A stretch of DNA of 26,429 nucleotides from a virus, in the IMG/VR virus record IMGVR_UViG_3300011187_000049, positions 1 through 26,429 of that record, one strand, 5' to 3'. Below the pieces are notes generated by a model that had not been told where the DNA came from, searched no databases, and saw only the letters and a list, made by a program, of their open reading frames with translations. The stretch's first letter is position 1; the number at the start of each line of letters is the position of its first letter. Both the position numbers and the translations under genes were made by a program. This document shows, one piece after another, positions 459 through 25,005 of the stretch.

Positions 459-2765
459 ATGTCTAACAAAATCAAGTCGCCCAATACAGTATTTACAGAA
501 ACGGACAAATCTCAAACGTTTCAGGCACCGGAAATTACAGATTTTGTTGTTATTGGTAGAACTCCTAAAGGGAGATGCTACGTACCAACTATTGTAGAAA
601 ATTACCAACAATATTCAAAATATTTTGGTGGTGTATCACGAAATGAATATACCGGAATAACAGTAAAAGAAACATTATTAGATGCAGATTCTATCGCTGT
701 AGTATCGATTGGTGGTACTGAGGATTATGATCTGGATCATGTATTTGAAATTACACAGAGTGGTTCAACACTTGCACAATTATATTTATCAGCAGAAGGT
801 ATAGCACAAGGTATTACTTCTGCATCTTTTGGTGTTAATGACGAAGCTGGAAATTTGGATTTAAAATTCTTTTCCGGTTCAACTGAAGTAGCTGAAGTTA
901 CGGGAATCTCCTTATTTGTGGCTGATGAAGATAAATATATCGGAAATTATGATAATCCATTAGCAGAAAACAATTTATTCTATACAAAATATAAGGTAGA
1001 TTTAACTGATGCTGGATTGGATGGTTCTGGTAGTGTTGGTACTACATTTTCTGATACAGATTCGGTAAATATTTACAATTTGGCGGGTTCAACTACTTAT
1101 GGTAAGTATGATGAGGGTGAAACTCCATGGGTTGTATCACAAACAATTTCTAATGCGAATTATAAACTATTTAAATTTGAAACATTGGCACATGGCGATC
1201 AAGCTAATCGTGATGTAAAAATTTCAGTCATAAATGTACGTTCAGCATCAGATTTAGATATCGATGATAATGATTTTGGATTATTTGATGTATTAGTTAG
1301 AGATTATTCTGATACTGATAATGAACCAGTAGCATTAGAACAGTATAATAATTTATCACTTAATCCACAAAGCGTCAATTATATTGCTCGAAGAATTGGT
1401 GATTTGAAACGTGAATATAATACTGTATCTGGTCAGGTAGAAGAAGATGGAGTTTATGAAAACTCTTCTGAATATATTAGAGTAGTAATGGATTATACGG
1501 ACAAACCAGATGTAGCAATACCATTTGGTTTTGAAGGATATAATTATGCTACAAAATTATATGATCCAAACATTGTTCCGGCTTATATTAAATTTCCTGA
1601 GTCTGGAAGTGGAAATTATAGTGGTGTAGATTTCGATACAACAACATATATTGATGATTTACATAGTGAATTACCAAAATCTACTTCTGAAGGGTTTACA
1701 ACAGCCGATTCCGGATCTACATTTGTATTATCATCAAGTGTAAGTGCGGTACCGGAAGATGATAGAAAATTCACTTTTGGATTCCAAGGTGGATCGATAG
1801 GTATTAATGAAGCTACTGAAAGTTTAATAGGTGTTTCGGCATCCGTAACAAATACATTTGGTTTAAACTTCACGGATACAACATCAGATGGATATTTAGC
1901 GTATAAAAAAGCTATTGATACTGTTAGTGATAAAGAATTATTTAGATTCAAAACATTATCATTGGCTGGGCTGACTCTTAAACAACACGGTAATGTATTT
2001 ACTTATGCTTTTGATATGGCAAAAAGTAGAACACGTGGTGAAATTGTAGTATTGGCAGATCCCACTGAACCGAATTCAAATGGTAAAACTAATGTTTCGG
2101 ATATTGAAACTACAACTAATGGAGCATTTGATTCATCTCACGGATCCGCTATTGCACCATGGTTTTGGTATAATGATTCAGAAATTGGTAGAGTGTTGGC
2201 ACCACAGGGTGCATTGATGCCAAGAACGCTTGCACACAACGATAGAATCTCAGCCCCATGGTATGCCGCTTTTGGCTTCGAACGTGGCGCACAGGGTGGA
2301 TATCGACCTTACACGAGATATAACATCGGACTTCGTGATCGTTTACATGATGCACGTGTAAATTCTGTAATTCAAATTGTTGGTGAACCTTCTCCGGTTG
2401 TTATGAATAACAGAACACTACAACGTAAAGATTCTGCTTTATCATTCTTGAATGTTAGAAGATTGGTTAATGAGGCAAAAATTCAGTTCGATATAATTAC
2501 CAGAAAATATTATGGTCGCCCATTTACTCCGGCTACACGTAATAACTTAGCATCTGAAATAAAAACATATCTTTCACGTGTACAATCTGAAAACGGATTA
2601 GAAACATATGAAGCTATTTTTGATGATTCTGTTCAAACACAACAGTCAACGGATCAGGCAATCATACGTGGTGTTGTATTCTTAGTACCAATTAAAGGTG
2701 TACAGGGAATCGAGATTGGATTTGTTATCGGTAAATCAGGAACAACTTTTGAAGAAAATCGATAA
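459..2765 (+). CDS. Contractile tail sheath protein (gp18-like)
   Basis: This 768-aa protein forms the outer contractile tube of the tail. The N-terminus (FVVIGRTPKGRCYVPTIVEN then YSKYFGG) matches the sheath N-terminal pattern of 'IGxAPKGP...PxLITS...F...FGG'. The C-terminal ~170 residues carry the conserved sheath core: APWYAAFGFERG, LRDRLHDARVNSV, SFLNVRRLVNEA, and a closing strand ending GVQGIEIGFVIG. The middle (~90-480) is variable and rich in Ser, Thr, Asp and Gly, as expected for surface-exposed insertion domains. Length is somewhat above T4 gp18 (659 aa). All four Trp are UGG and the frame has no UGA, unlike the next gene. It ends with TAA closely followed by TAG. The ATG at 459 is the first in frame after the terminator; no Shine-Dalgarno is visible. 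The tail tube follows 46 nt later. Confidence 0.92.
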   Translation: MSNKIKSPNTVFTETDKSQTFQAPEITDFVVIGRTPKGRCYVPTIVENYQQYSKYFGGVSRNEYTGITVKETLLDADSIAVVSIGGTEDYDLDHVFEITQSGSTLAQLYLSAEGIAQGITSASFGVNDEAGNLDLKFFSGSTEVAEVTGISLFVADEDKYIGNYDNPLAENNLFYTKYKVDLTDAGLDGSGSVGTTFSDTDSVNIYNLAGSTTYGKYDEGETPWVVSQTISNANYKLFKFETLAHGDQANRDVKISVINVRSASDLDIDDNDFGLFDVLVRDYSDTDNEPVALEQYNNLSLNPQSVNYIARRIGDLKREYNTVSGQVEEDGVYENSSEYIRVVMDYTDKPDVAIPFGFEGYNYATKLYDPNIVPAYIKFPESGSGNYSGVDFDTTTYIDDLHSELPKSTSEGFTTADSGSTFVLSSSVSAVPEDDRKFTFGFQGGSIGINEATESLIGVSASVTNTFGLNFTDTTSDGYLAYKKAIDTVSDKELFRFKTLSLAGLTLKQHGNVFTYAFDMAKSRTRGEIVVLADPTEPNSNGKTNVSDIETTTNGAFDSSHGSAIAPWFWYNDSEIGRVLAPQGALMPRTLAHNDRISAPWYAAFGFERGAQGGYRPYTRYNIGLRDRLHDARVNSVIQIVGEPSPVVMNNRTLQRKDSALSFLNVRRLVNEAKIQFDIITRKYYGRPFTPATRNNLASEIKTYLSRVQSENGLETYEAIFDDSVQTQQSTDQAIIRGVVFLVPIKGVQGIEIGFVIGKSGTTFEENR

Positions 2766-2811
2766 TAGATATAATTAATCATAAAGGAATTAATTTAAAA
2801 ATATAAACAAC

Positions 2812-3306
2812 ATGTATATACAACCAGAAGGATTAACAAGGGGTACTCACCAGCTACAAACGAAACACACAAACAGGTTTCTTTTTAGTATCGACGGTGA
2901 TCCTACAACTAAATTGTTAGTTAAAGAAGCGCCCCGACCATCAGTATCATTTGAAGACATCGAAATACCTCATATCAACAAATATAGATATGAAATTGGT
3001 CGTCCACGTTACGAATCATTAAACATTACAATGATGGATTATGTAACTCCATCCACAGCACAATATGTGTCGGCATGATTAGCAACACAAAGTGAAACAT
3101 GGACTGGTAAAATGGGTTATTCCATTTTTTATCGCAGACGTTGCACATTAGAAGTAATGGGTGGTGTTAACGATGTCGTAGAGCGATGGGATTATTTCAA
3201 CTGTCATATCGTCAGCGCTGATTTCGGAACCATGTCATGGGATTCTGAAGAACCAGTACAAATTAATCTCTCAATCCGTTATGATGATTTTATTCATAGA
3301 TTTTAA
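2812..3306 (+). CDS. Tail tube protein (gp19-like) with in-frame UGA=Trp
   Basis: A 164-aa protein, the same size as T4 gp19 (163 aa), directly after the sheath gene as in T4-like phages. It builds the inner tail tube. Under the standard code it breaks at TGA 3076-3078 (codon 89). The frame continues exactly on the other side to TAA at 3304-3306, and the second half (RRCTLEVMGGVNDVVERWDY ... SADFGTMSWDSEEPVQINLS) is the typical tube C-terminal sheet ending in an IxLxIRYD strand. The UGA falls in a helix read as YVSA-W-LATQ, close to the conserved 'FVDW' Trp helix of T4 gp19. The other three Trp (ETW, ERW, MSW) are UGG. I read it as one intact gene with UGA decoded as Trp, not as two genes or a frameshifted pseudogene. 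A strong terminator follows. Confidence 0.9.
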
Positions 3307-3342
3307 ATTGAGTTTTTAAATTAATTCCAATAATCATTATGG

Positions 3343-3374
3343 GGGAATTCATATCATTTGAATTCCCTTTTTTT
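3343..3374 (+). terminator. Rho-independent terminator after tail tube gene
   Basis: Stem GGGAATTC (3343-3350) / GAATTCCC (3360-3367), 9-nt loop, then seven T (3368-3374). It separates the sheath-tube unit from the chaperone/baseplate cluster starting at 3429. Confidence 0.9.
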
Positions 3375-3417
3375 ATTTTTTGACCATATTTAATATTAGA
3401 AACAAAGAAAATTTTAT

Positions 3418-3425
3418 AGAGGAAA
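3418..3425 (+). promoter_or_regulatory. Shine-Dalgarno-like site before 3429 gene
   Basis: AGAGGAAA lies a few nucleotides upstream of ATG 3429 and is one of the few good Shine-Dalgarno-like sequences in the window. Most other starts (for example 7311, 13648, 14634, 16008 and 21648) have only A/T-rich leaders. It supports the chosen start. Confidence 0.5.
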
Positions 3426-3428
3426 TAT

Positions 3429-4250
3429 ATGAACAATATTTTAGGAAAGAAATTCGAAACGCAACGTAACATCAAATATGATACTCCAACTATTGATGAG
3501 AATCAACGAGTAAAAGAAATCCCATTGCCATCGGAAGGTAAGGTATATTCAAAAGATTCATATCTTGCTGATGGTACAATTAAGTTTCGTTATATGAAAG
3601 GTAGAGACGAAGATATGTTCTCTAATCCGGATTATGCAAAAAAGGGTACAACCCTTAATATGTTATTGAAACATTTATGTGTAGATAAAGAATTTGAACC
3701 CAATGATTTAACAGTATCGGATTGGTTATATGCGATTGTAGCTGTTCGAATAATGAATCTGGGTCAGGAAGTTATGGTCAAAGATATAATATGCCCAAAA
3801 TGTGGTGAAAAAAATCCTAAACATACGTTTGAACTTTCTAATATTAAAGAGGGTGAACCAATAGAGGATCCTAAAGTTAAACATAACAATAGATATGAAT
3901 TAAAACTTCCTGTAAGTGGTGAATCTATTGCCATAAAAATATTAGATGGTCATGATATGAGGAACTTTACTGATATATTAGGAAAAATGAATGATAAAAC
4001 GGATAGATTATATACACTAACTACAGCATTGTCTATTATTGAAGCTCCGGTTGAAAATTCTGAACAATTAGGTGAATTATTAGACTATGTAGATAATCTA
4101 CCAATTAGGGATATGAAATATATTCGTTCGACATTAAATGAGATATCAGGCGTGGTAACAGCAAATATAGACTATGAATGCCCTACATGCGAAAATGTTG
4201 TTGATTATACCGTTCCTACAGACGAAACATTTTTTTTTCCTGAACTATAA
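3429..4250 (+). CDS. gp26-like baseplate/tail assembly chaperone with zinc-ribbon cysteines
   Basis: A 273-aa protein resembling the T4 baseplate protein family (gp26 type). The N-terminal third has the family pattern IPLPSEGKVY, then a GTIKFRYMKGRDED strand, then a helical LLKHLCVD ... DWLYAIVAVRIMNLGQE core. Two CxxC pairs, CPKCG near residue 120 and CPTC near the C-terminus, probably bind zinc. In T4, gp26 acts in baseplate hub assembly. Here the gene lies immediately before a second frame and the tape measure, the position of the tail assembly chaperone pair G/GT in many phages. The reading frame ends FFFPEL-TAA just after a run of nine T at 4230-4238, and the +1/-2 frame beyond the run is open with coding character (see slippery site). 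A Shine-Dalgarno-like AGAGGAAA precedes the ATG. Confidence 0.72.
   Translation: MNNILGKKFETQRNIKYDTPTIDENQRVKEIPLPSEGKVYSKDSYLADGTIKFRYMKGRDEDMFSNPDYAKKGTTLNMLLKHLCVDKEFEPNDLTVSDWLYAIVAVRIMNLGQEVMVKDIICPKCGEKNPKHTFELSNIKEGEPIEDPKVKHNNRYELKLPVSGESIAIKILDGHDMRNFTDILGKMNDKTDRLYTLTTALSIIEAPVENSEQLGELLDYVDNLPIRDMKYIRSTLNEISGVVTANIDYECPTCENVVDYTVPTDETFFFPEL
4230..4238 (+). other. T9 slippery run, candidate frameshift or slippage site
   Basis: Nine consecutive T fill three UUU Phe codons four codons before the stop of the 3429 gene. A +1 (or equivalently -2) shift here enters the frame that stays open to TAA at 4453-4455. P-site tRNA-Phe can re-pair on UUU after either shift. RNA polymerase slippage on a homopolymer this long would have the same effect. 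The location, at the end of the gene before the tape measure, is where tail assembly chaperone genes classically frameshift. The predicted fusion is about 341 aa. Functional use is inference. Confidence 0.5.
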
Positions 4251-9884: not shown

Positions 9885-12533
9885 ATGAGTGTATATTTTC
9901 ATTTAGATGTTGTAGGGAAACCTTTTTCGAAAGAAGTTCAAAATGAGTTAAACAAGCGCAAAACATTACATCAAATAGATTATGAAACTGAAGCGCCATT
10001 TCACAGACCTTATTTTAAACTTAAAAGGATAACTACGTCTGATTCAAGTGGTTGAGATAATAGGGTAGATAGTGTTAAATATCCTGAAGGTAAACCATTA
10101 AGTGTATTGGGTACGTATAGTGGAGATGAATATAATATTGCTGAAGGATTATTAGATTTAGAACAGCGAGATTCGGAATATAAATTAACTTCGGGTATTA
10201 CCAATGTTACTGTTGATATTACCGATTTCGTATTATTTACGGTCAAAGTAGATTTTTTAATCCCAGATATATCTCAATTTGAAGATTTTAAAAAGATGTG
10301 GCTGGATTTTGGTTTACAGTGTGAATTGGAATGGGGTAGAGCCAGAAATTTTGAGGATTTATCAGAAAAGTCATCACCGGATAAACAGAAAATGGAAGGT
10401 ATTATATCGTATTTTGATTATCAATATCAATCGAATCGCACGATAAAGGGTACATTGACTATTTATTCCAAGACCGCATTGACGCAAATGAGGGGTGGGA
10501 TAATGGAAAAAGAGGAAATGAACATTTTTAAAGAGGTGGTTAAACAATCCTTATTTGATAAAGTATTGACTTCGCAAACAGAAAATATAGAAGTTAATGT
10601 AAAAAATGATTATTCATATGTTTCTATGAAAAAAGAAAGTATTAATAATATTAAAAGAGAATCAAAATTAATTGAGAATAAAAAGATTAGAGGTAAAATA
10701 ATAAGAGATGATGACTTTACTCCCAATACTACGATATATAATTATACGGGATTTTCAGATTATTCTAAAATATTTTATCCAAAAGGTATAGAAGAAGTAG
10801 ATACAGATTTTAAACAACAACAAAAAGATAATAATATAAATGAATTAGTAAAAAAACGTGATGAAGAACGCACATGATTATCTGCTGGTTTAGAACAAAA
10901 AAAGTCTATAGAAGAGGCAAATTGATCTTTGTTTGTTGAAGGTGCCATAAATTTGAGAAGAAAAATGAGCTTTAATTTTCGATTGGGAGTGTGGGTTAAA
11001 GAGAGAAAATATCCGATAAAATCAGTATTTTCAATAAATGCAAAGGATTACTCAGTAAATGAAAAGGAATACTTTTCTATGAAATCTGATATATTACGTT
11101 TTATTCAAGAGCAATCAAATATAATACAAGAACTCAATGATCAAATAAGTGAAATAAAAGAAGAAAGATTAGAAAATGATAATTTATATAAATATTTAAT
11201 ATCCCAATTATCATTGGATGAATCCCAATATTATTCCAAATACTATTATTACGTTTCATTTAAATTTGTTGAACATTTAATGCGGGAGATGGTTTACCGA
11301 AATGAGAAAGAAGTTAATGAAAATGTAGAGAAAAATGAAGATGGGAAAATTATTGCTTCTATATTGAATAGTGATTTTAATTTTTCTGAAGTTGTAGTTA
11401 GAAATTTACAAAACGCCAACTTTTCTTCTATATATCCGGATCGGTGCATTATTAATCCATGGAATGTAACATATTCGACAAAAGATAACCCAAAAAATGA
11501 AAGAGATTTATTTGAAGAAAATGGTAATGGAAATATTACACTATTAAAAGATGTTTATATTTCTATATACGAACTTATGAATATTATCGATGGGGTAGAT
11601 TCAATATATGAATTTGTAGATGAAGTTATAAAAGTAGTGAATAATTCTACGAAGGGAATGATTAATTTAAGAAAGTCGATAGAATATAATGAGAATGAAA
11701 CAGATGATTATATTTCAACGCATATATTAACGATCATCGATCAGTCCATATCTAACTCTATTCAAGAATTAGATAATTTCTATACGTTTGATTTATTCGA
11801 TCCAAGAGAACGCATAAAATCTATTGACGTAGTTACTGATATACCGGATGAATTATCTTCCACCGTATATTTTAAAAACTCAGGAAAAATAATTGATTCC
11901 CATGGCAACATTTATAATAAAGATGGTGCAATGGATTCTGGTATGGGATTATCGATGCCTATTGATAATGAATCCATTATTGAAAAGAATACTAAATTAT
12001 TCGAATCAGTACTTAGGGATGGTATGGAGTATGTACAGGATAGATTATCAGATGTTTACGACTGATCTGATTTTGACCAAGAAAAAAGTTTTGACATATC
12101 GGCTCAATTTTCATATATTTATATGTATTACACTGTATTGTACAAATTATATAGTGTGAGACAATTAAAATATGGAGATAGTGGTTCGGCTATACAAATA
12201 CCCCTTAAAATTTCATTCACATTGGATGGAATAGCAAAAATTATTGCTGGACAGGTATTTAAAGTATCTAATAACTCATTCCCGATAGGTTATAATTTTG
12301 ATAATACGGAATTATGGTCACATTTTTCGGTCATGAATATTAACCATACCATTGCAAATGGTTTATGGAATACCAATATAGAAGCACAACTATATCTCAA
12401 TTTTGATGGCAAACGTGAATTGTCAAGCCAGTTCACAAATTTCGATTCAGTTAGAAATGAATTCGAATCAACAATGCAAAGTATAAGAGATAACATAGGA
12501 GTGTATTTAAATAATGCAACCAATTCAGAATAA
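9885..12533 (+). CDS. Large baseplate (possibly hub-like) protein with four in-frame UGA=Trp
   Basis: A single 882-aa frame to TAA 12531-12533, with UGA at 10053, 10875, 10923 and 12063 (codons 57, 331, 347, 727) and six UGG Trp. The N-terminal ~190 residues include FTVKVDFLIPDISQFEDFKK then a long gap-free LQCELEWGR; the LxVEWGW-type motif is common in baseplate hub proteins (gp27-like) of large phages, so a hub role is possible. Residues ~390-460 look coiled coil (IQEQSNIIQELNDQISEIKE). The C-terminal ~130 residues are beta-rich (IQIPLKISFTLDGIAKII). A Shine-Dalgarno-like AAAGGA lies 5 nt before the ATG. The gene overlaps the next one by 20 nt in a different frame. The hub assignment is uncertain; membership of the tail cluster is firm. 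Confidence 0.72.
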
Positions 12534-13539
12534 AATTTATTTTCCGATTTTCAACAATCCCTTATTACCAAAGAGGATTGAATTTATTTTAGAAAAAGAT
12601 GGAGATGAAATTACAAAGCATAAATTACTACCCTTAAAAGATACACCATATTATAGATTACCCGTAAGTGATATTGATGTGGTATCTACATTTTCCGATC
12701 CGGATAATATGGTAGTGGATAAGAAAAATTTATTGAAAGTGTTTCCAACAGCTAAAGGGTATGATTATGATTTTAGTACATGGATCTGGTTAAAAGATTC
12801 AGAGAAGAAATTTACCCCATCATATTATGAATATTCACATTTAAATGAATATTCTAATTATTTTAAAACTATTACCCCACCTAAACTTCATGATTACAAT
12901 GATAATCATAACACAGTATTAAAATTTGCCGGATTGATAGATGGTAAATTAAATGATTCTGTTAAAAATTTAAATCCATACACGAAAACGGGAAGACTCA
13001 AGGATATTGGTGCCAATTCAATATCGATGAAAAAAGTGGATAGAGAAAAAATACCATGTAAAGGTGTAAGGGTTGATATTGATGTCGATGGCTTTCATTT
13101 AAGAATTATTTCGAATCTTATGGATTATACTATCCCAAAAGATAAAAAAGCTATTGACTTTTTTCGAAAAGATTCGGATATTACCGGAAGTCACGGGGAA
13201 TTTAAGACCGAGATATATAAATCTTTTTATTCTGAAAGATTTGACTTGATTGATAACGAATTCTTCCGTATACTAAAGAAGTCATACAGATCGTTTCCAT
13301 CATTGTTGAATGATACTAATATTTTCAATTATAAAATTCAGCAACATGAAGTGGTCGAGATGGCTAACATGGTTTTATCTATACCGAAAAGTTTGTATCA
13401 TCAAATACTATTTTATACGTATGATGGTATTACTTTCGACGTTAGAAAAGACCGGATAAAATCGTTCCTAACTCATTTGAAAACAATGGATTACCCATTT
13501 TCTGTAAATTTATTAGGAAAATCGTATTTTATTCATTAA
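12514..13539 (+). CDS. Baseplate/tail-region protein of unknown function
   Basis: A 341-aa protein starting 20 nt inside the end of the preceding baseplate gene, a coupled overlap, and probably the last gene of this tail block. It begins NKIYFPIFNNPLLPKRIEF and mixes beta-like stretches (GVRVDIDVDGFHLRIISN) with helical ones (HEVVEMANMVLSIPKSLYHQ). No signal peptide or membrane segment. Both Trp (STWIWLK) are UGG, no UGA. No hairpin terminator is obvious in the 108-nt gap to the SSB gene. I do not recognise the family; a role as a baseplate or tail accessory protein is inferred from position only. Confidence 0.68.
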   Translation: MQPIQNKIYFPIFNNPLLPKRIEFILEKDGDEITKHKLLPLKDTPYYRLPVSDIDVVSTFSDPDNMVVDKKNLLKVFPTAKGYDYDFSTWIWLKDSEKKFTPSYYEYSHLNEYSNYFKTITPPKLHDYNDNHNTVLKFAGLIDGKLNDSVKNLNPYTKTGRLKDIGANSISMKKVDREKIPCKGVRVDIDVDGFHLRIISNLMDYTIPKDKKAIDFFRKDSDITGSHGEFKTEIYKSFYSERFDLIDNEFFRILKKSYRSFPSLLNDTNIFNYKIQQHEVVEMANMVLSIPKSLYHQILFYTYDGITFDVRKDRIKSFLTHLKTMDYPFSVNLLGKSYFIH

Positions 13540-18605: not shown

Positions 18606-20825
18606 ATGAACGGCAGATTATTATTATCAGATTTAAAATTTTATACAGATTATTCAAAATACGATTACGATAAACAGGGTTATGAAACATGGTATGAATC
18701 AGTAGATCGTGTCATGGGAATGCACAAAAAGAAATTCTCACATATTAATAATGAAAAATTTGATGAATTATTAGATTTTACTACAACATTATATAAAAAT
18801 AAACAAATATTAGGATCGCAACGGGCATTACAATTTGGTGGTGAACCCATGTTTCGTCACCAAGCCAGAATGTTTAATTGTCTCACAAATTATGCAGATC
18901 GTATTAAATTCTTTCAAGAAACATTTTATTTATTACTTTGTGGTTGTGGTGTTGGATTCTCTGTACAAAAACATCATATAGAAAGATTACCCACAGTAAA
19001 AGGAAAAGGTAAGAGAACTAAAACGTTTGTAGTACCGGATAGTATAGAAGGATGGTCAGATGCATTGGGTGTACTATTATCTTCTTATTTTACGGGTGTC
19101 GTTCCTTTTCCAAAATACCAAGGAGTAGAGGTTCATTTTGATTTTTCAGAAATAAGACCAAAGGGATCATTTATTACTGGTGGCTTTAAAGCACCGGGGC
19201 ACAAAGGGTTACAGCAATCATTAAATCATATTGATACTCTCCTAAAGAAAGCAACACAAAATGATGAGAGACAATTAAAACCCATCGAAGTATATGATAT
19301 TGTAATGCATACGGCGGATGCTGTATTGAGTGGTGGTGTAAGACGTTCCGCAACTATTTGTGTATTCTCACCAGATGATGAAGAAATGATGAATGCCAAA
19401 ACGGGAAATTGGTATGAAACTAATCCACAAAGAGCAAGATCCAACAATTCGGCTTTACTTATTCGTGGTGAAACTTCATATGCAGAATATAAACGAATAG
19501 CGGAGAAAACGAAACAATTCGGGGAGCCAGCATTTATCTGGTCATGGCATAGAGACATTATGTTCAATCCATGTGTAGAAATTTCCATGTTTCCACAAAT
19601 TGATGGAATATCTGGTAATCAAGGTTGTAATTTATCTGAAATTAATGGTTCAATGTGTAATACAGAACAGGAATTTTATGATGCTTGTAAAGCCGCTTCC
19701 ATTATTGCAACGTTACAAGCTTCTTATACAGATTTTAAATATTTGGGTGAAGAATCTAAACGAATATTTGATCGTGAAGCATTAATTGGTGTATCAATAA
19801 CCGGATTTGCCAACAATCCAGAAATTCTTTTTGATGAAGAAATCTTGCGTAAAGGTGCACGAATAGTAAATAAATATAATAAGATTGTATCTGAAATTAT
19901 TGGTATAAACCCTGCGGCTCGAACGACTTGCGTGAAACCTTCTGGCAATGCTTCAGTAGTACTTCAAACTGCATCCGGTATCCACCCCGAACATTCTACA
20001 AATTACTTCAGGGTAATGCAGATGAATAAAGAATCCGAATTTACCAAATATATTATGGATCGTTATCCATACATGGTAGAAGAATCGGTATGGAGTGCAA
20101 CAAAATCTGATGTCGTGGTATTTGTTCCGGTCAGTAATGATAACAATGTATTAACCAAAAAAGATATGATTGGTGTGGATCACTTAAAAATGGTGAAAAA
20201 AGTACAAAATAGTTGGGTAGCTGAGGGAACACAGAAAGAATATTGCACTGTTGAAGGCATTCAAAACAATGTATCCAACACTATTATTGTAGATGATTGG
20301 GATGAGGTATTTGATTATATTTTTGAAAATCAGAATTTTTTCACTGGTACGAGTTTTATTCCAAATAATGGCGACAAACTATATAATCAGGCACCTTTCA
20401 CATCTGTTTTGATGATGGATGAATTGGTAGAAAAATATGGCGAAGCATATTTATTCGCTTCTGGTCTTATTGTTGATGGTTTACATGCCTTTAATAATTT
20501 ATGGGATGCTTGTAGTACTGCTCTATTTAATACAGAATTAGAACAAAGCTCGGAGAACGCATTAAAGTTGGATTGGGTAAGAAGGTTTAATCAATACGCT
20601 GATAGGTTTCTCGGTGGCGATTTAAATACTACTGCTGAATGTTTGAAAGATGTACATTTATATCACCGGTGGGTTAAAATAAATAGATATAAAGTGGATC
20701 ATGATTTACATGAAGTAGTCAAAGAGCCTAAGTATACAGATATTGATACTATGGGTTCGATGGCATGTTCCGGTGGTCAATGTTCCATTGATGATTGGGT
20801 ACTGGATAAAATGGAAAATAAGTAA
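18606..20825 (+). CDS. nrdJ: Class II (B12-dependent) ribonucleoside-triphosphate reductase
   Basis: A 739-aa monomeric-type adenosylcobalamin-dependent reductase converting NTPs to dNTPs; the length equals that of the Lactobacillus leichmannii enzyme. Visible features: MFNCLTNYADR with the first redox Cys (C92); CGCGVGFSVQ; the catalytic loop NPCVEI with the thiyl-radical Cys C323 and Glu two residues later; GCNLSEIN with the partner redox Cys C341; VKPSGNASVVLQTASGIHPE of the substrate-binding barrel; and a C-terminal CSGGQC pair (C721/C726) that shuttles electrons. No class I small subunit gene or class III activase is present. All twelve Trp are UGG. It supplies dNTPs for the replication genes just upstream. 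The gene starts after two hairpins and is followed by the remains of a homing endonuclease. Confidence 0.9.
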   Translation: MNGRLLLSDLKFYTDYSKYDYDKQGYETWYESVDRVMGMHKKKFSHINNEKFDELLDFTTTLYKNKQILGSQRALQFGGEPMFRHQARMFNCLTNYADRIKFFQETFYLLLCGCGVGFSVQKHHIERLPTVKGKGKRTKTFVVPDSIEGWSDALGVLLSSYFTGVVPFPKYQGVEVHFDFSEIRPKGSFITGGFKAPGHKGLQQSLNHIDTLLKKATQNDERQLKPIEVYDIVMHTADAVLSGGVRRSATICVFSPDDEEMMNAKTGNWYETNPQRARSNNSALLIRGETSYAEYKRIAEKTKQFGEPAFIWSWHRDIMFNPCVEISMFPQIDGISGNQGCNLSEINGSMCNTEQEFYDACKAASIIATLQASYTDFKYLGEESKRIFDREALIGVSITGFANNPEILFDEEILRKGARIVNKYNKIVSEIIGINPAARTTCVKPSGNASVVLQTASGIHPEHSTNYFRVMQMNKESEFTKYIMDRYPYMVEESVWSATKSDVVVFVPVSNDNNVLTKKDMIGVDHLKMVKKVQNSWVAEGTQKEYCTVEGIQNNVSNTIIVDDWDEVFDYIFENQNFFTGTSFIPNNGDKLYNQAPFTSVLMMDELVEKYGEAYLFASGLIVDGLHAFNNLWDACSTALFNTELEQSSENALKLDWVRRFNQYADRFLGGDLNTTAECLKDVHLYHRWVKINRYKVDHDLHEVVKEPKYTDIDTMGSMACSGGQCSIDDWVLDKMENK

Positions 20826-20847: not shown

Positions 20848-20898
20848 TCACAGTTTAGATATAATGTTATAAATAATTAATATAAAACTAAACTGTGA
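20848..20898 (+). promoter_or_regulatory. Inverted repeat with TATAAATA in its loop, before endonuclease start
   Basis: Arms TCACAGTTTAG (20848-20858) and CTAAACTGTGA (20888-20898) are perfect 11-bp complements; further partial pairing (AAGAA/TTCTT) carries the right arm up to the ATG at 20904. The 29-nt loop contains TATAAATA (20868-20875), the T4 late promoter consensus. A long transcript from nrdJ would pair the region next to the start codon; a transcript starting downstream of TATAAATA would lack the left arm. Whether this phage uses T4-type late promoters is unknown. Confidence 0.5.
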
Positions 20899-20903
20899 TT
20901 CTT

Positions 20904-21515
20904 ATGGAATATATTTATAAAATAACTAATTTATAAAATAATAAATTTTATATAGGTAAAACTAAAAATTTAAGTAAAAGATGATTATATCATAAATCAA
21001 ATATAGGTAAAAAGAGGCACCATTTACATGATGCCATTAATAAAGGATATAATTTGGTAAAAGGTGGGAATGGTGGAGATATATTTTCTCAATTGTCAAC
21101 TAAAAGACAGAACGAAATAAAAGAAAAACTTAGAAAAAATATGAAGATTAATAATCCTATGTTTGATAAACATTCAAGAAATAAATGAGAAGAAAAAATA
21201 CAATCTAAAGAATATAAAAATAAAATGTCAAAATCTGTACGAGAGAGATATAAGAACAAACCAGAAATATTGGAAAAAAAGTCCAAATCGATGAAAAAAA
21301 CATTACAGTATCCAAAAATGAGAAAAAATGGAGTGGAGTTAGTCAGGGTAAAAAAAATTCACGCTGATTGGGTTATTTAATAACGACTGATAATAATGGA
21401 TAAAAAAATATTTATGAAACAAGTACTGATGCGGGGCAAATTAAAAGGGTGGAAATTTGAATTAACTAAAGAATTACCCAATTGGGTAGCAGACAACGAT
21501 ATTGAATTTATTTAA
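20904..21515 (+). pseudogene. Decayed GIY-YIG homing endonuclease (free-standing), UGA-using
   Basis: The start EYIYKITNL ... NNKFYIGKTKNLSKR is an unmistakable GIY-YIG domain. A TAA (20934-20936) replaces the residue normally Ile in 'ITNLINxKxYIG'. After HHLHDAINK the text jumps to GYNLVKGGNGGD, so the middle of the catalytic domain seems deleted. Near 21322-21328 an A run has lost one base: beyond it the other frame reads GVSQGKKNSR-UGA-LGYLIT, a typical NUMOD-type DNA-binding segment. Another TAA and a further frame change follow before GWKFELTKELPNW and TAA at 21513-21515. UGA stands where Trp is expected in NLSKR-W and NSR-W-LGY (20982-20984, 21365-21367), plus a third at 21186. So the gene evolved with UGA=Trp and then died. 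Confidence 0.85.
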
Positions 21516-21647: not shown

Positions 21648-22121
21648 ATGGCTGAACAAGCAAAAATGATCAAAGATAAGGCGTATTACAAAGACCCTGC
21701 CGATGTAATTGAATTGGCTAAACACGTAGAAAGAGAAAAAATGTTGGATATGGAAGGTGTTAATGTTGGATTCGTCTTAGTGGATCCGATGATCTCCGGA
21801 AAGAGTGTAGTAGCAAAAACTATCAATGCCAATAATGAAGTAAAATTGTATTCTGATTATGATTTTATTATTGAATTATCCATGGATGTTTGGGATATGA
21901 TTAATGATGATATCAGGTATAAAATCATTGAACACAATCTTCGTAGTATTTTTGTGGATGAAAATGATAGTAGTGGTAAAATTATAATGAAGAAGATGCA
22001 ACCGGATATTCAAGAATTTTTCCCAATGCTTCGTGATTATGGAGTAGAATGGATTTCGGAATTGAAAACAATTACTGAGTCTGTGCGTGAATTGGAAGTT
22101 CTTGAAAAGGTAGATTATTAA
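21648..22121 (+). CDS. Putative phage metallopeptidase-fold protein lacking HExxH
   Basis: A 157-aa soluble protein. Its layout resembles the putative phage metallopeptidase family: a strand with DYDFIIELSMDVWDMINDD, then a helix IRYKIIEHNLRSIFVDE, then a late PDIQEFFPMLRDYGVEWIS segment. In active members the helix reads DHELCHV or similar (HExxH zinc motif). Here it reads H96-N-L-R-S, so the Glu and the second His are missing and peptidase activity is unlikely. The N-terminal ~35 residues are charged. Both Trp are UGG. The gene starts a new unit after two terminators and the next ATG follows one base after the stop. Family assignment is from memory of the pattern and is moderate. Confidence 0.6.
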   Translation: MAEQAKMIKDKAYYKDPADVIELAKHVEREKMLDMEGVNVGFVLVDPMISGKSVVAKTINANNEVKLYSDYDFIIELSMDVWDMINDDIRYKIIEHNLRSIFVDENDSSGKIIMKKMQPDIQEFFPMLRDYGVEWISELKTITESVRELEVLEKVDY

Positions 22122-23548: not shown

Positions 23549-23998
23549 TTATTTGGCTTTTTGGTAATGGGAGTATTTACTACCAATATTACCGAAGAAA
23601 AAGACACCAATATTCATTCATGTAAATTCAGATCATATATTTATTAATTCAGTAACATGTTCGAAATTATTGTAATACTCATATATCTGAGTTAATACGG
23701 CTACAGTTACAAACAACTGCAAGTATTTAAATATTTTATATTTTCTGGATTTTACTTTTTCTGATAGAGGAACTATGGGTGTTTCTTTATCAGAATTTTT
23801 GTTGTTTAATACCTTAACTGAAATGTTAGCTGAAGAGTATAGAGCTACATTCTTTCATGTAAACTCAATTCAGGCATCAAATAAAATGGGTACATCTTTA
23901 AATGCACCCGTGGATATAAAGAACACTACAATATTAAATATGGTAAAGCCAATTTGTAGAATTAAGAATCATCGATATTTTAAAGAGTTATTCTTCAT
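23549..23998 (-). CDS. Hidden membrane protein, all five Trp encoded by UGA
   Basis: This 149-aa gene is seen only if UGA is read as sense. On the minus strand ATG 23998-23996 runs to TAA 23551-23549 with UGA at codons 10, 43, 48, 122 and 127 and no UGG at all. The N-terminus is KYR-W-FLILQIGFTIFNIVV, a strong membrane helix (~10-30). A second hydrophobic stretch is KYLQLFVTVAVLTQIY (~91-106) and a third lies near 128-138 (MNIGVFFFGNIG). Between them are IEFT-W-KNVALYSSANISV and a Lys-rich loop. It overlaps the end of the upstream 237-aa gene by 11 nt, so it is co-translated, and faces the dNMP kinase tail to tail. A holin-like or other envelope role is possible but unproven. A plus-strand frame at 23775-24017 is its shadow. 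Confidence 0.75.
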
Positions 23999-24701
23999 TT
24001 TTAAATTTGAATTCTAAATAAGTAGTAGTTTCTTTTTGTTTTCTTATGTACTTATTAAGAATTTCGGGTTTATTTTTAATATTTTCAGATTCAAATTTAT
24101 CTCACAAAGTAATTAATACACCAATCGGTGTACCTTCACGTACCCGAATGGGAGTAGCAATAATATAGTAATTATTGTATGATTTCATAAATGATCTCAT
24201 TGTTAGTTCATCAACTTGTGTGACCGGAGCATAAAATATATTTTGTGTTAATACGTCATCGATAGTAATAGCGAATAATGCAACATTAAATGTATTAATA
24301 TCCATTGCATTTATGTTGGTATATTCAGCATGGTCTTCGGATATCAATGACATACGTTTGGCGTGAAAGTCGGCACCTATACGCTGACCATTGTGAAATC
24401 CAAAGAATAGAACTACATTTGATGATGTATTTATTCGATGCTCCATCAATTTTGTTTTGATTGATTTTTCAAAAGCAAAATTATCTATACCATATAATTT
24501 GTTATAGATATTGGAATCGTCCATGCGTTGGACTTGTTCGTAAGTTTGTTTGGTTAATTCAACGTTTTGTTTTATTAGATTTCAGTAATAAAACATAGTC
24601 AAATATGCAACACCAGTCATTAAGAACATGACGAAAATGAATGTAATTTTTTTTCATCCGTGTGAAAAAACGGTGTTGAGGAAATTTAGAATTGTATTCA
24701 T
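23988..24701 (-). CDS. Membrane-anchored protein with GAF/PAS-like domain, three in-frame UGA=Trp
   Basis: Minus-strand ATG 24701-24699 (directly after an in-frame TAA) to TAA 23990-23988, 237 aa. UGA at codons 16, 40 and 200 encode all its Trp; there is no UGG. A single membrane helix lies at about residues 19-39 (ITFIFVMFLMTGVAYLTMFY), followed by a coiled linker (LIKQNVELTKQTYEQVQR). Residues ~80-200 form a GAF/PAS-like domain: SSNVVLFFGFHNGQRIGADF ... NYYIIATPIRVREGTPIGVL; the 'FxFHNG' pattern recurs in membrane-anchored phage proteins as I recall. A standard-code call would start at Met60 and stop at codon 199, losing the membrane anchor and the tail. It lies 8 nt after the 75-aa gene and overlaps the following gene. 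Confidence 0.78.
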
Positions 24702-24709
24702 TTAGTAAA

Positions 24710-24937
24710 TTATTTTTTGATGGCACCAGACCAATATTTACTTCGTTGCCATAGAATTTTATGATATTTCTCAAACATATCAGCTACGACATCATTGATT
24801 ACTTTTTCCATTTCCTTATCACTCAACTTTTTTTCTATATCTTTCAAAGATTTATCCAATTCAGTTTGAATGATGGAGCGTATTTCAGATTTATCAGCAT
24901 TGGATAACTCTTCGAGTAAAAGTTTTGAAATGGGCAT
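24710..24937 (-). CDS. Small helical protein, first gene of the minus-strand cluster
   Basis: A 75-aa protein, highly charged and helical (NADKSEIRSIIQTELDKSLK; KKLSDKEMEKVINDVVADMF), ending in an aromatic/basic patch ILWQRSKYWSGAIKK. The pattern 'LxxxLWxRxxxWxxAL' at the C-terminus recalls short proteins of unknown role in other T4-like phages. Both Trp are UGG. No membrane segment. It is separated by 8 nt from the membrane-anchored 237-aa gene, so the three minus-strand genes look like one operon running toward the dNMP kinase gene. Confidence 0.68.
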   Translation of the reverse strand: MPISKLLLEELSNADKSEIRSIIQTELDKSLKDIEKKLSDKEMEKVINDVVADMFEKYHKILWQRSKYWSGAIKK

Positions 24938-25005
24938 AATTATTATTTTATATCAAGTTTTCATAGTTAATTATATTCTAATTACTATTTTCCAATAATA
25001 TCATA
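24938..25005. promoter_or_regulatory. Divergent intergenic region, likely promoters
   Basis: A 68-bp, very A/T-rich gap between the minus-strand cluster and the plus-strand SNF2 helicase. Both transcription units should be read outward from here. Several TATAAT-like boxes are possible but none can be chosen confidently by eye. Confidence 0.3.

Follow-up and report, generated by a model that had tools for sequence, protein, structure and literature searches.

The stretch of DNA analysed here, hereafter the window, consists of the 26,429 bases of IMGVR_UViG_3300011187_000049 and belongs to a T4-like myovirus. Genes for the tail sheath, tail tube, baseplate hub and a gp53-like protein, as recognised by Pfam, PHROG and homology, make up its virion side; they are followed by a replication side with a single-strand binding protein, UvsX, an exonuclease, gp41 helicase, ribonucleotide reductase, dNMP kinase and a UvsW-like helicase. 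Amongst named phages it is closest to Microcystis phage Mel-JY01 and to LR756508, an uncultured phage of 484 kb, with 26-32% identity. All of the recognised genes lie on the plus strand except for a minus-strand trio at 24937-23549, encoding proteins of 75, 237 and 149 aa, of which the latter two are inverted between the genes for the dNMP kinase and the UvsW-like helicase (Table 1). The coordinates, strand, lengths and UGA positions that a first-pass annotation had given for this pair proved exact on recheck. The stop codon of the 75-aa gene is separated by 8 nt from the 237-aa gene, the end of which overlaps the start of the 149-aa gene; translational coupling of these two genes through the overlap is possible. 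A phage search with the 75-aa ORF yielded no convincing relative, and an upstream ATG at 24964 (24938-24964, minus strand) would give it nine more codons, including one UGA. The T4-like late promoter TATAAATA is not enriched in the window (8 sites compared with 7.87 expected), and no recognised endolysin is encoded within its 26.4 kb.

Table 1. Features of the minus-strand trio, with positions in the window.
Feature	Position	Strand	Remarks
75-aa soluble ORF, first of the trio	24710..24937	-	2 UGG, 0 UGA from ATG 24937
237-aa putative GAF-domain, T-type holin-like membrane protein	23988..24701	-	3 UGA, 0 UGG
UGA codon 16 of the 237-aa gene	24654..24656	-	Trp alignment with relatives not robust when masked
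Predicted transmembrane helix, residues 19-37 of the 237-aa protein	24591..24647	-	Hydropathy peak 2.1
UGA codon 40 of the 237-aa gene	24582..24584	-	On a conserved Trp when written W, not when masked
GAF-like domain, residues about 75-237	23991..24479	-	From model and alignment; His-Asn-Gly family motif at 103-105
UGA codon 200 of the 237-aa gene	24102..24104	-	At the family's conserved Trp
Overlap of 11 nt, end of 237-aa gene and start of 149-aa gene	23988..23998	-
149-aa membrane protein, internally duplicated hairpin	23549..23998	-	5 UGA, 0 UGG
First repeat of the 149-aa protein, residues 2-62	23813..23995	-	With UGA codons 10, 43 and 48
Second repeat of the 149-aa protein, residues 81-141	23576..23758	-	With UGA codons 122 and 127

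One near-identical contig, IMGVR_UViG_3300035702_000277 (16.9 kb), differs from the window by 44 mismatches over 15.4 kb; two of these fall in the pair and both are non-synonymous, a number too small for a test of selection. Searches for nearer relatives with UvsW, ribonucleotide reductase and gp41 returned only distant or horizontally shared genes. Amongst the loci gathered in this way, the near-identical contig and the window itself being left out, there were no relatives of the three minus-strand genes, and the further loci L203-L210 contained no credible member of the family of the 237-aa protein described below. The ribonucleotide reductase (18606-20825, plus strand) shares 56-59% identity with its counterparts on many IMG/VR contigs, the other genes of which are unlike those of the window phage, and it is therefore likely to be horizontally shared. 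Two further plus-strand frames may be mentioned. One, at 20898-21380, resembles by eye a GIY-YIG homing endonuclease (YIYKITN...YIGKT); it is broken by an in-frame stop, contains one UGA and has probably decayed. The other, at 21648-22121, matches PhageMetallopep (PF18894, E 5e-14), and HExxH, the usual zinc motif, is not evident in its sequence. Gene starts across the window appear by eye to be A/T-rich with little Shine-Dalgarno sequence, a feature known from Bacteroidota phages, which may hint at the host.

Under the standard code (table 11), the 149-aa gene stops after nine residues and the 237-aa gene after 15, with a longest piece of the latter at 24524-24102 (codons 60-199); as the first-pass annotation had stated, this reading loses the former protein and leaves a fragment of the latter. 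In 2,000 Markov-simulated minus strands of 1.5 kb, a run of 237 codons without TAA or TAG was never seen, and a run of 149 codons was seen in 1.1%. Runs readable with UGA are frequent antisense to real genes in this AT-rich window, extending up to 314 codons, and the eight runs tested are also membrane-like, with 3.0-5.0 hydrophobic windows per 149 residues. Because such runs are common and membrane-like here, the length and hydrophobicity of an ORF are not by themselves proof of coding, and it might be supposed that the pair is spurious and consists of nothing but antisense open runs of AT-rich DNA. This is nevertheless highly improbable: the 237-aa gene is shown to be coding by its homology and the 149-aa gene by a frame-specific internal repeat, and about 1.15 kb of a packed window would otherwise be left to a single plus-strand ORF of 80 aa. 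The rival plus-strand ORF at 23775-24017 has no Pfam or PHROG match, and in any plus frame the score of the repeat is at most 11, compared with 89 in the minus frame. On the evidence of their sequences, both minus-strand genes are real, and they are readable only if UGA is tryptophan.

There is evidence of several kinds for such a reading. Amongst 23 complete genes counted under table 4, 20 end in TAA and three in TAG, and none ends in TGA. When UGA is masked as X, codon 89 of the tail-tube gene and codon 56 of the gp53-like gene each fall on tryptophan in both of the standard-code relatives, Mel-JY01 and LR756508; the latter codon also falls, in an unmasked alignment, on a tryptophan of PDB 8kea. 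Eight UGA positions are covered by alignments at domain E < 0.05, and the residue opposite is tryptophan in four, with phenylalanine, leucine, aspartate and asparagine once each. The aspartate and asparagine cases come from an antisense frame of LR756508 aligned with the 149-aa protein (E 5e-4), which is taken as a chance match. Glycine is found at none of the eight positions, and code 25 is thus disfavoured. The notion that each UGA codon of the 237-aa gene lies on a conserved tryptophan has been dropped, because on masking there was support for codon 200 only. Masked, this codon faces tryptophan in 40 of 44 rows in the local mode of MAFFT and lies one column off in two other modes; in a smaller set of 12 rows that includes T holins, one mode puts tryptophan opposite it in nine, and two modes in none. 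The masked hhalign alignment ends four residues before codon 200, in a register that would put it on the family tryptophan. No tRNA, including a suppressor tRNA-Trp(UCA), was found in the 26.4-kb window or in the 16.9-kb near-identical contig, both of which are genome fragments. Taken from stop-codon usage and the masked alignments together, UGA is read as tryptophan in the window phage.

The codon is not used evenly. When genes are classed as early or late from homology, UGA accounts for one of 41 tryptophan codons in the replication genes, 13 of 37 in the virion genes and eight of eight in the pair (three in the longer gene, at codons 16, 40 and 200, and five in the shorter, at codons 10, 43, 48, 122 and 127, with no UGG in either); the share in the pair differs from that in the replication genes with P = 2e-8 and from that in the virion genes with P = 9e-4. 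These counts place the gene at 12514-13539, of unassigned function, on the replication side, tally the 75-aa gene (2 UGG) apart, and leave out a partial capsid ORF at 3-302 (1 UGG) and the GIY-YIG-like fragment at 21054-21380 (1 UGA, 1 UGG). They uphold the earlier claims that all eight tryptophans of the pair are encoded by UGA and that the pair shares the code usage of the virion (late) genes even though it is inverted within the replication region. Base composition predicts about 76-81% UGA for tryptophan in all classes, and third-position bias (NNA 0.81) predicts the eight out of eight of the pair with P = 0.19, so that the UGA share of the pair is merely neutral. The replication genes, by comparison with the approximately 76% UGA predicted from NNA/NNG bias, use UGG for 40 of 41 tryptophans (P = 6e-24). 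Thus, the pair stands at the neutral level, the virion genes are partly depleted of UGA and the replication genes strongly so, a pattern that fits a standard-code host in which UGA gains its reading later.

Alternatively, the phage might read UGA as tryptophan simply because it infects a host that uses code 4, without any element of timing. The lack of genes ending in TGA, the failure to find a suppressor tRNA in either genome fragment, and the agreement of the UGA share of the pair with compositional expectation would all be in keeping with such a host. It does not account for the near-exclusive use of UGG by the replication genes, and restriction of UGA to late genes has a precedent in crAss-like phages, many of which decode UGA or UAG chiefly in their late genes (PMC7886860). 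We regard a code-4 host as quite unlikely. An earlier study, as cited in PMC10879173, reportedly found structural and lysis genes to be enriched in recoded stops. The window phage is like crAss-like and other recoded phages in that UGA is read as tryptophan mostly in late genes (PMC7886860), and is unlike the crAss-like cases in being a T4-like myovirus, with a contractile-tail sheath, UvsX, gp41 and a gp32-like protein, and kin of Mel-JY01. It is also unlike other recoded phages in that its candidate lysis genes use only UGA for tryptophan.

Pfam and PHROG scans of the 237-aa protein gave nothing usable and no match to a holin; weak matches of members of the pair, at E 0.02-0.09, to DUF7704, a DnaD-like loader and phrog_20455 were not accepted. 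One locus, L003, was set aside as a chance match, none of its open frames resembling the query. The first relative was a weak match in Mel-JY01, subsequently seen by BLASTP at E 6e-6 to WWT39317.1. Close relatives of WWT39317.1 are encoded in 107 IMG/VR stretches, from which 80 loci were kept. Further relatives occur in Nonlabens phage P12024S, Salmonella phage Arash, LR756508 and Bacteroides phage BS-TP1, and those in Leptospira phage LE1 and Microcystis phage MaMV-DC appeared at E about 1 in the initial search. Compared by hhalign with the family, the 237-aa protein scores 95% (E 3.7e-8, or 6.5e-8 with UGA masked), with E 0.2 for the reversed sequence and a best score from 40 shuffles of 21.2 compared with 54.0. 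In leave-one-out profiles, all seven divergent members tested were recovered at 93-99% (E 1.8e-8 for the window protein and 2.2e-7 for LE1); with the Mel-like core alone, the 237-aa protein scores 26% (E 7e-4). For this gene, the refutation tests that the first-pass annotation had set, a homologue aligning across the UGA codons among them, turned out in favour of coding.

The alignment used for modelling (A1) included 38 of the 80 IMG/VR loci and one further locus. The AlphaFold2 model obtained from it (mean pLDDT 69) has one long helix, residues 2-59, and a GAF-like domain, which is matched by many solved GAF domains, for example 2qyb (Z 14.8, rmsd 2.8 A, 143 residues aligned). By homology and predicted structure, the 237-aa protein belongs to an unnamed phage family that has an N-terminal membrane helix followed by a GAF-like domain. 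The architecture is the same in WWT39317.1 of Mel-JY01, P12024S_12, LE1-0048, BS-TP1 gp129, Arash gp232 and the unannotated ORF of LR756508, and most members, like the 237-aa protein, have the His-Asn-Gly or a similar motif. The named relatives are unlike the window gene in being open in the standard code, and the position of the family gene differs from phage to phage, be it beside an endolysin, beside capsid and PhoH genes or amongst structural genes. In the genome of Klebsiella phage RaK2, RaK2_00146 matches the family profile at E 2e-4; its membership is doubtful, a single-sequence comparison with the Mel-like core having given no support. RaK2_00145 and RaK2_00146 form an inverted minus-strand pair (locus 2683-4062) amongst nrdB, frd and dda, in each of which products a single helix at the N-terminus precedes a soluble domain; they possibly represent an arrangement parallel to that in the window.

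The layout of the 237-aa protein recalls that of the holin T of phage T4. It has been reported (PMC12162936) that T requires for hole formation a short cytoplasmic amphipathic helix with F22, together with the basic residue R34, and that its globular domain is dispensable for this. The N-terminus of the 237-aa protein is short and amphipathic and ends in Lys17-Lys18 ahead of the membrane helix; Phe12 and Lys17/Lys18 occupy places comparable to F22 and R34, and the hydrophobic moment is 0.55, compared with 0.68 in T4. T4 T and T5-type holins share with the 237-aa protein a single N-terminal membrane helix after a short amphipathic segment, basic residue(s) before that helix, a linker helix and a C-terminal globular domain. 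They differ in that the His-Asn-Gly motif is absent from T, and in that the 237-aa gene is inverted in a replication region, has three UGA codons and lies in a window without a recognised endolysin; in the T5-type case, the endolysin gene comes next after that of the holin. Counts of lysine and arginine, compared with a view to the N-in, C-out topology of T holins, are equal on the two sides of the membrane helix, as they are in T4 T itself. In several relatives positive charge is biased towards the side of the helix that bears the domain, which suggests that in these the GAF-like domain is cytoplasmic.

The model of the 237-aa protein matches 6pxe_T, the periplasmic domain of T4 T, with a Foldseek E of 8.5e-5, a probability of 1.00 and a TM (target) of 0.49. 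This match stands at rank 39 amid unrelated GAF domains of similar score, and its weight is reduced by the generality of the GAF fold. Three of the 32 viral models matched at E <= 0.001 are annotated as holins, those of Proteus phages phiP4-3 and Stubb (class III) and of Serratia phage PS2 (T holin); the T4 holin is not among the best 50 VIA-align matches listed, which says nothing against likeness to T. Sequence comparison does not join the two families. Up to E 10, the 237-aa protein has no match to PF11031 or PHROG 860, T4 T itself scoring 394.7 bits, and for this reason it is not filed under Phage_holin_T (PF11031). Profile-profile comparison of the T family with that of the 237-aa protein reaches 11% (E 0.0027) with the window sequence included and 2-3% without it, compared with at most 0.2% for reversed controls; every single T sequence gives at most 1% against the family, and a search of the genomes of T4 and SP01 with the family profile, taken to E 10, gave no match. 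The aligned stretches of the two families are collinear, which as a link between them is suggestive only. Taking model and layout together, the 237-aa protein probably works like a T holin.

The neighbours of the relatives are of interest in this respect. In P12024S the family gene immediately precedes a Peptidase_M15 gene, and in LE1 a Peptidase_M23 gene, the start of which it overlaps; in BS-TP1 an Amidase_3 endolysin is encoded three genes downstream of it. A domain check confirmed all three assignments. It is thus within three genes of an endolysin in three of the seven named phages examined, no recognised endolysin being near it in Mel-JY01, MaMV-DC, Arash or RaK2 (the last of doubtful membership). 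Beside the family gene of Mel-JY01 are capsid and PhoH genes; at the Mel-like IMG/VR loci, PhoH is next in all 78 with room for it, and capsid-side genes come before in 42 of 55. The four ORFs neighbouring the family gene in LR756508, which has no annotation, are without a Pfam match.

It is on these neighbours that a different function might be argued, namely that the 237-aa protein is a membrane-anchored GAF protein with no part in lysis; it might act in sensing or superinfection exclusion, or be a minor protein of the virion or of its assembly. The relatives that are closest and also most numerous are encoded between capsid genes and PhoH, and that of Arash is annotated as structural, amongst genes annotated likewise; GAF domains are usually sensors, and the charge bias of several relatives points the same way. 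We hold this to be possible rather than probable, given the endolysins adjoining the relatives in P12024S and LE1 and near that in BS-TP1, the fold match to T holins, and the T-like layout, in which an amphipathic N-terminus and basic residues come ahead of the helix. Of the functions considered, lysis has the best support, on account of the T-type architecture and fold of the 237-aa protein and the presence of relatives at endolysins in some phages.

The 149-aa protein consists largely of two repeats, which align without gaps with 20 identities in 61 positions. Their score is 89, compared with 2,000 shuffles that averaged 27.3 and never exceeded 58; with tryptophan masked it is 67, the shuffle maximum then being 50. 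The repeat is seen only in the minus frame with UGA as tryptophan, the five other frames scoring at most 11. UGA43 and UGA48 align with UGA122 and UGA127, different codons are used at 11 of the 20 residues common to both repeats, and likeness between the repeats is highest at the second codon position (0.54, compared with 0.46 and 0.41 at the others). A single-sequence model of low confidence (pLDDT 52.5) has four helices, one strongly hydrophobic (KD 2.29) and three moderately so (0.76-1.16). An envelope location is predicted for the pair, for which an envelope function had been suggested.

Scans of the whole 149-aa protein and of each half against Pfam and PHROG gave no usable match and no holin family. 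Apart from the near-identical contig, no convincing relative was found; matches in LR756508 at E 0.006-0.03 contain internal stops and are taken as chance. A degenerate-codon scan for the repeat motif WxEFTW recovered only the near-identical contig and two unrelated frames, and a scan of genome contigs recovered nothing. No homologue thus spans the UGA codons of this gene beyond that contig, and the internal repeat takes its place as the evidence for coding. Of the lysis or membrane role that the first-pass annotation had suggested for the pair, lysis stands as the best-supported function for the 237-aa protein, and the 149-aa protein, without a convincing outside relative, is not placed by homology.

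The 149-aa protein may be the antiholin partner of a T-like holin. The roles could also be exchanged, with the duplicated-hairpin protein as the pore former and the GAF protein as its regulator. Many holins are small proteins with several helices. In P12024S, moreover, the endolysin is flanked on its far side by a protein with a weak match to GTA_holin_3TM (E 0.0054, short of the curated cut-off), and a family member can therefore share its cassette with another holin candidate. We consider such an exchange unlikely, since the 149-aa protein is unlike any holin family, strong hydrophobicity is confined to one of its four helices, and four-helix antiholins exist, P2 LysA being an example (PMC11413866).

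We therefore return to the reading in which a T-like holin and a linked membrane partner, encoded in a late operon, are silent until UGA is decoded; of the explanations considered it is the best, and we give it a little better than an even chance. According to this scheme, the minus-strand trio would form a small operon expressed late by a T4-like phage in which UGA means tryptophan. The 237-aa protein would be holin-like, built as is T of T4 from an amphipathic N-terminus, a membrane helix, a linker helix and a GAF-like globular domain, and the 149-aa protein, from the overlapping gene, would be a membrane partner with a duplicated hairpin, acting as antiholin or as part of the pore. For as long as UGA terminates, the two genes would yield just the 15- and nine-residue peptides. 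As a UGA-decoding tRNA accumulated late in infection, the holin-like protein and its partner would be made and the membrane could open. Through the 11-nt overlap, translation of the 149-aa protein may depend on the 237-aa gene being read to its end, and UGA codons in series would give production a steep onset.

The scheme can be extended to a form of lysis gated by the code itself. Eight serial UGA codons, three and then five, would keep both the holin and its partner unmade until UGA was read as tryptophan; the yield would rise steeply, approximately as a high power of decoding efficiency, and would serve as the lysis clock instead of promoter strength, with the partner as a new duplicated-hairpin regulator. 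This extension is tentative, and we put it forward as something rather less than probable.

Late-gene recoding and T holins are both already known. In titles and the openings of abstracts, most subscription papers lying outside the search, no literature was found on phage GAF-domain holins or on UGA or otherwise recoded lysis genes in a T4-like phage. The idea that stop recoding restrains lysis has so far been based on counts of recoded codons in late genes, the study of overrepresentation in structural and lysis genes reportedly being that of Borges et al. 2022. The pair in the window offers such a case on the scale of two genes and in a T4-like phage: its candidate lysis genes encode every tryptophan by UGA, the surrounding replication genes avoid this codon, and the odd code may delay lysis. 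Genes read through UGA in this way are missed by standard-code annotation. The widespread and as yet unnamed family of GAF-domain membrane proteins, some of them encoded beside endolysins, would thereby become a source of candidate T-type holins in phages.
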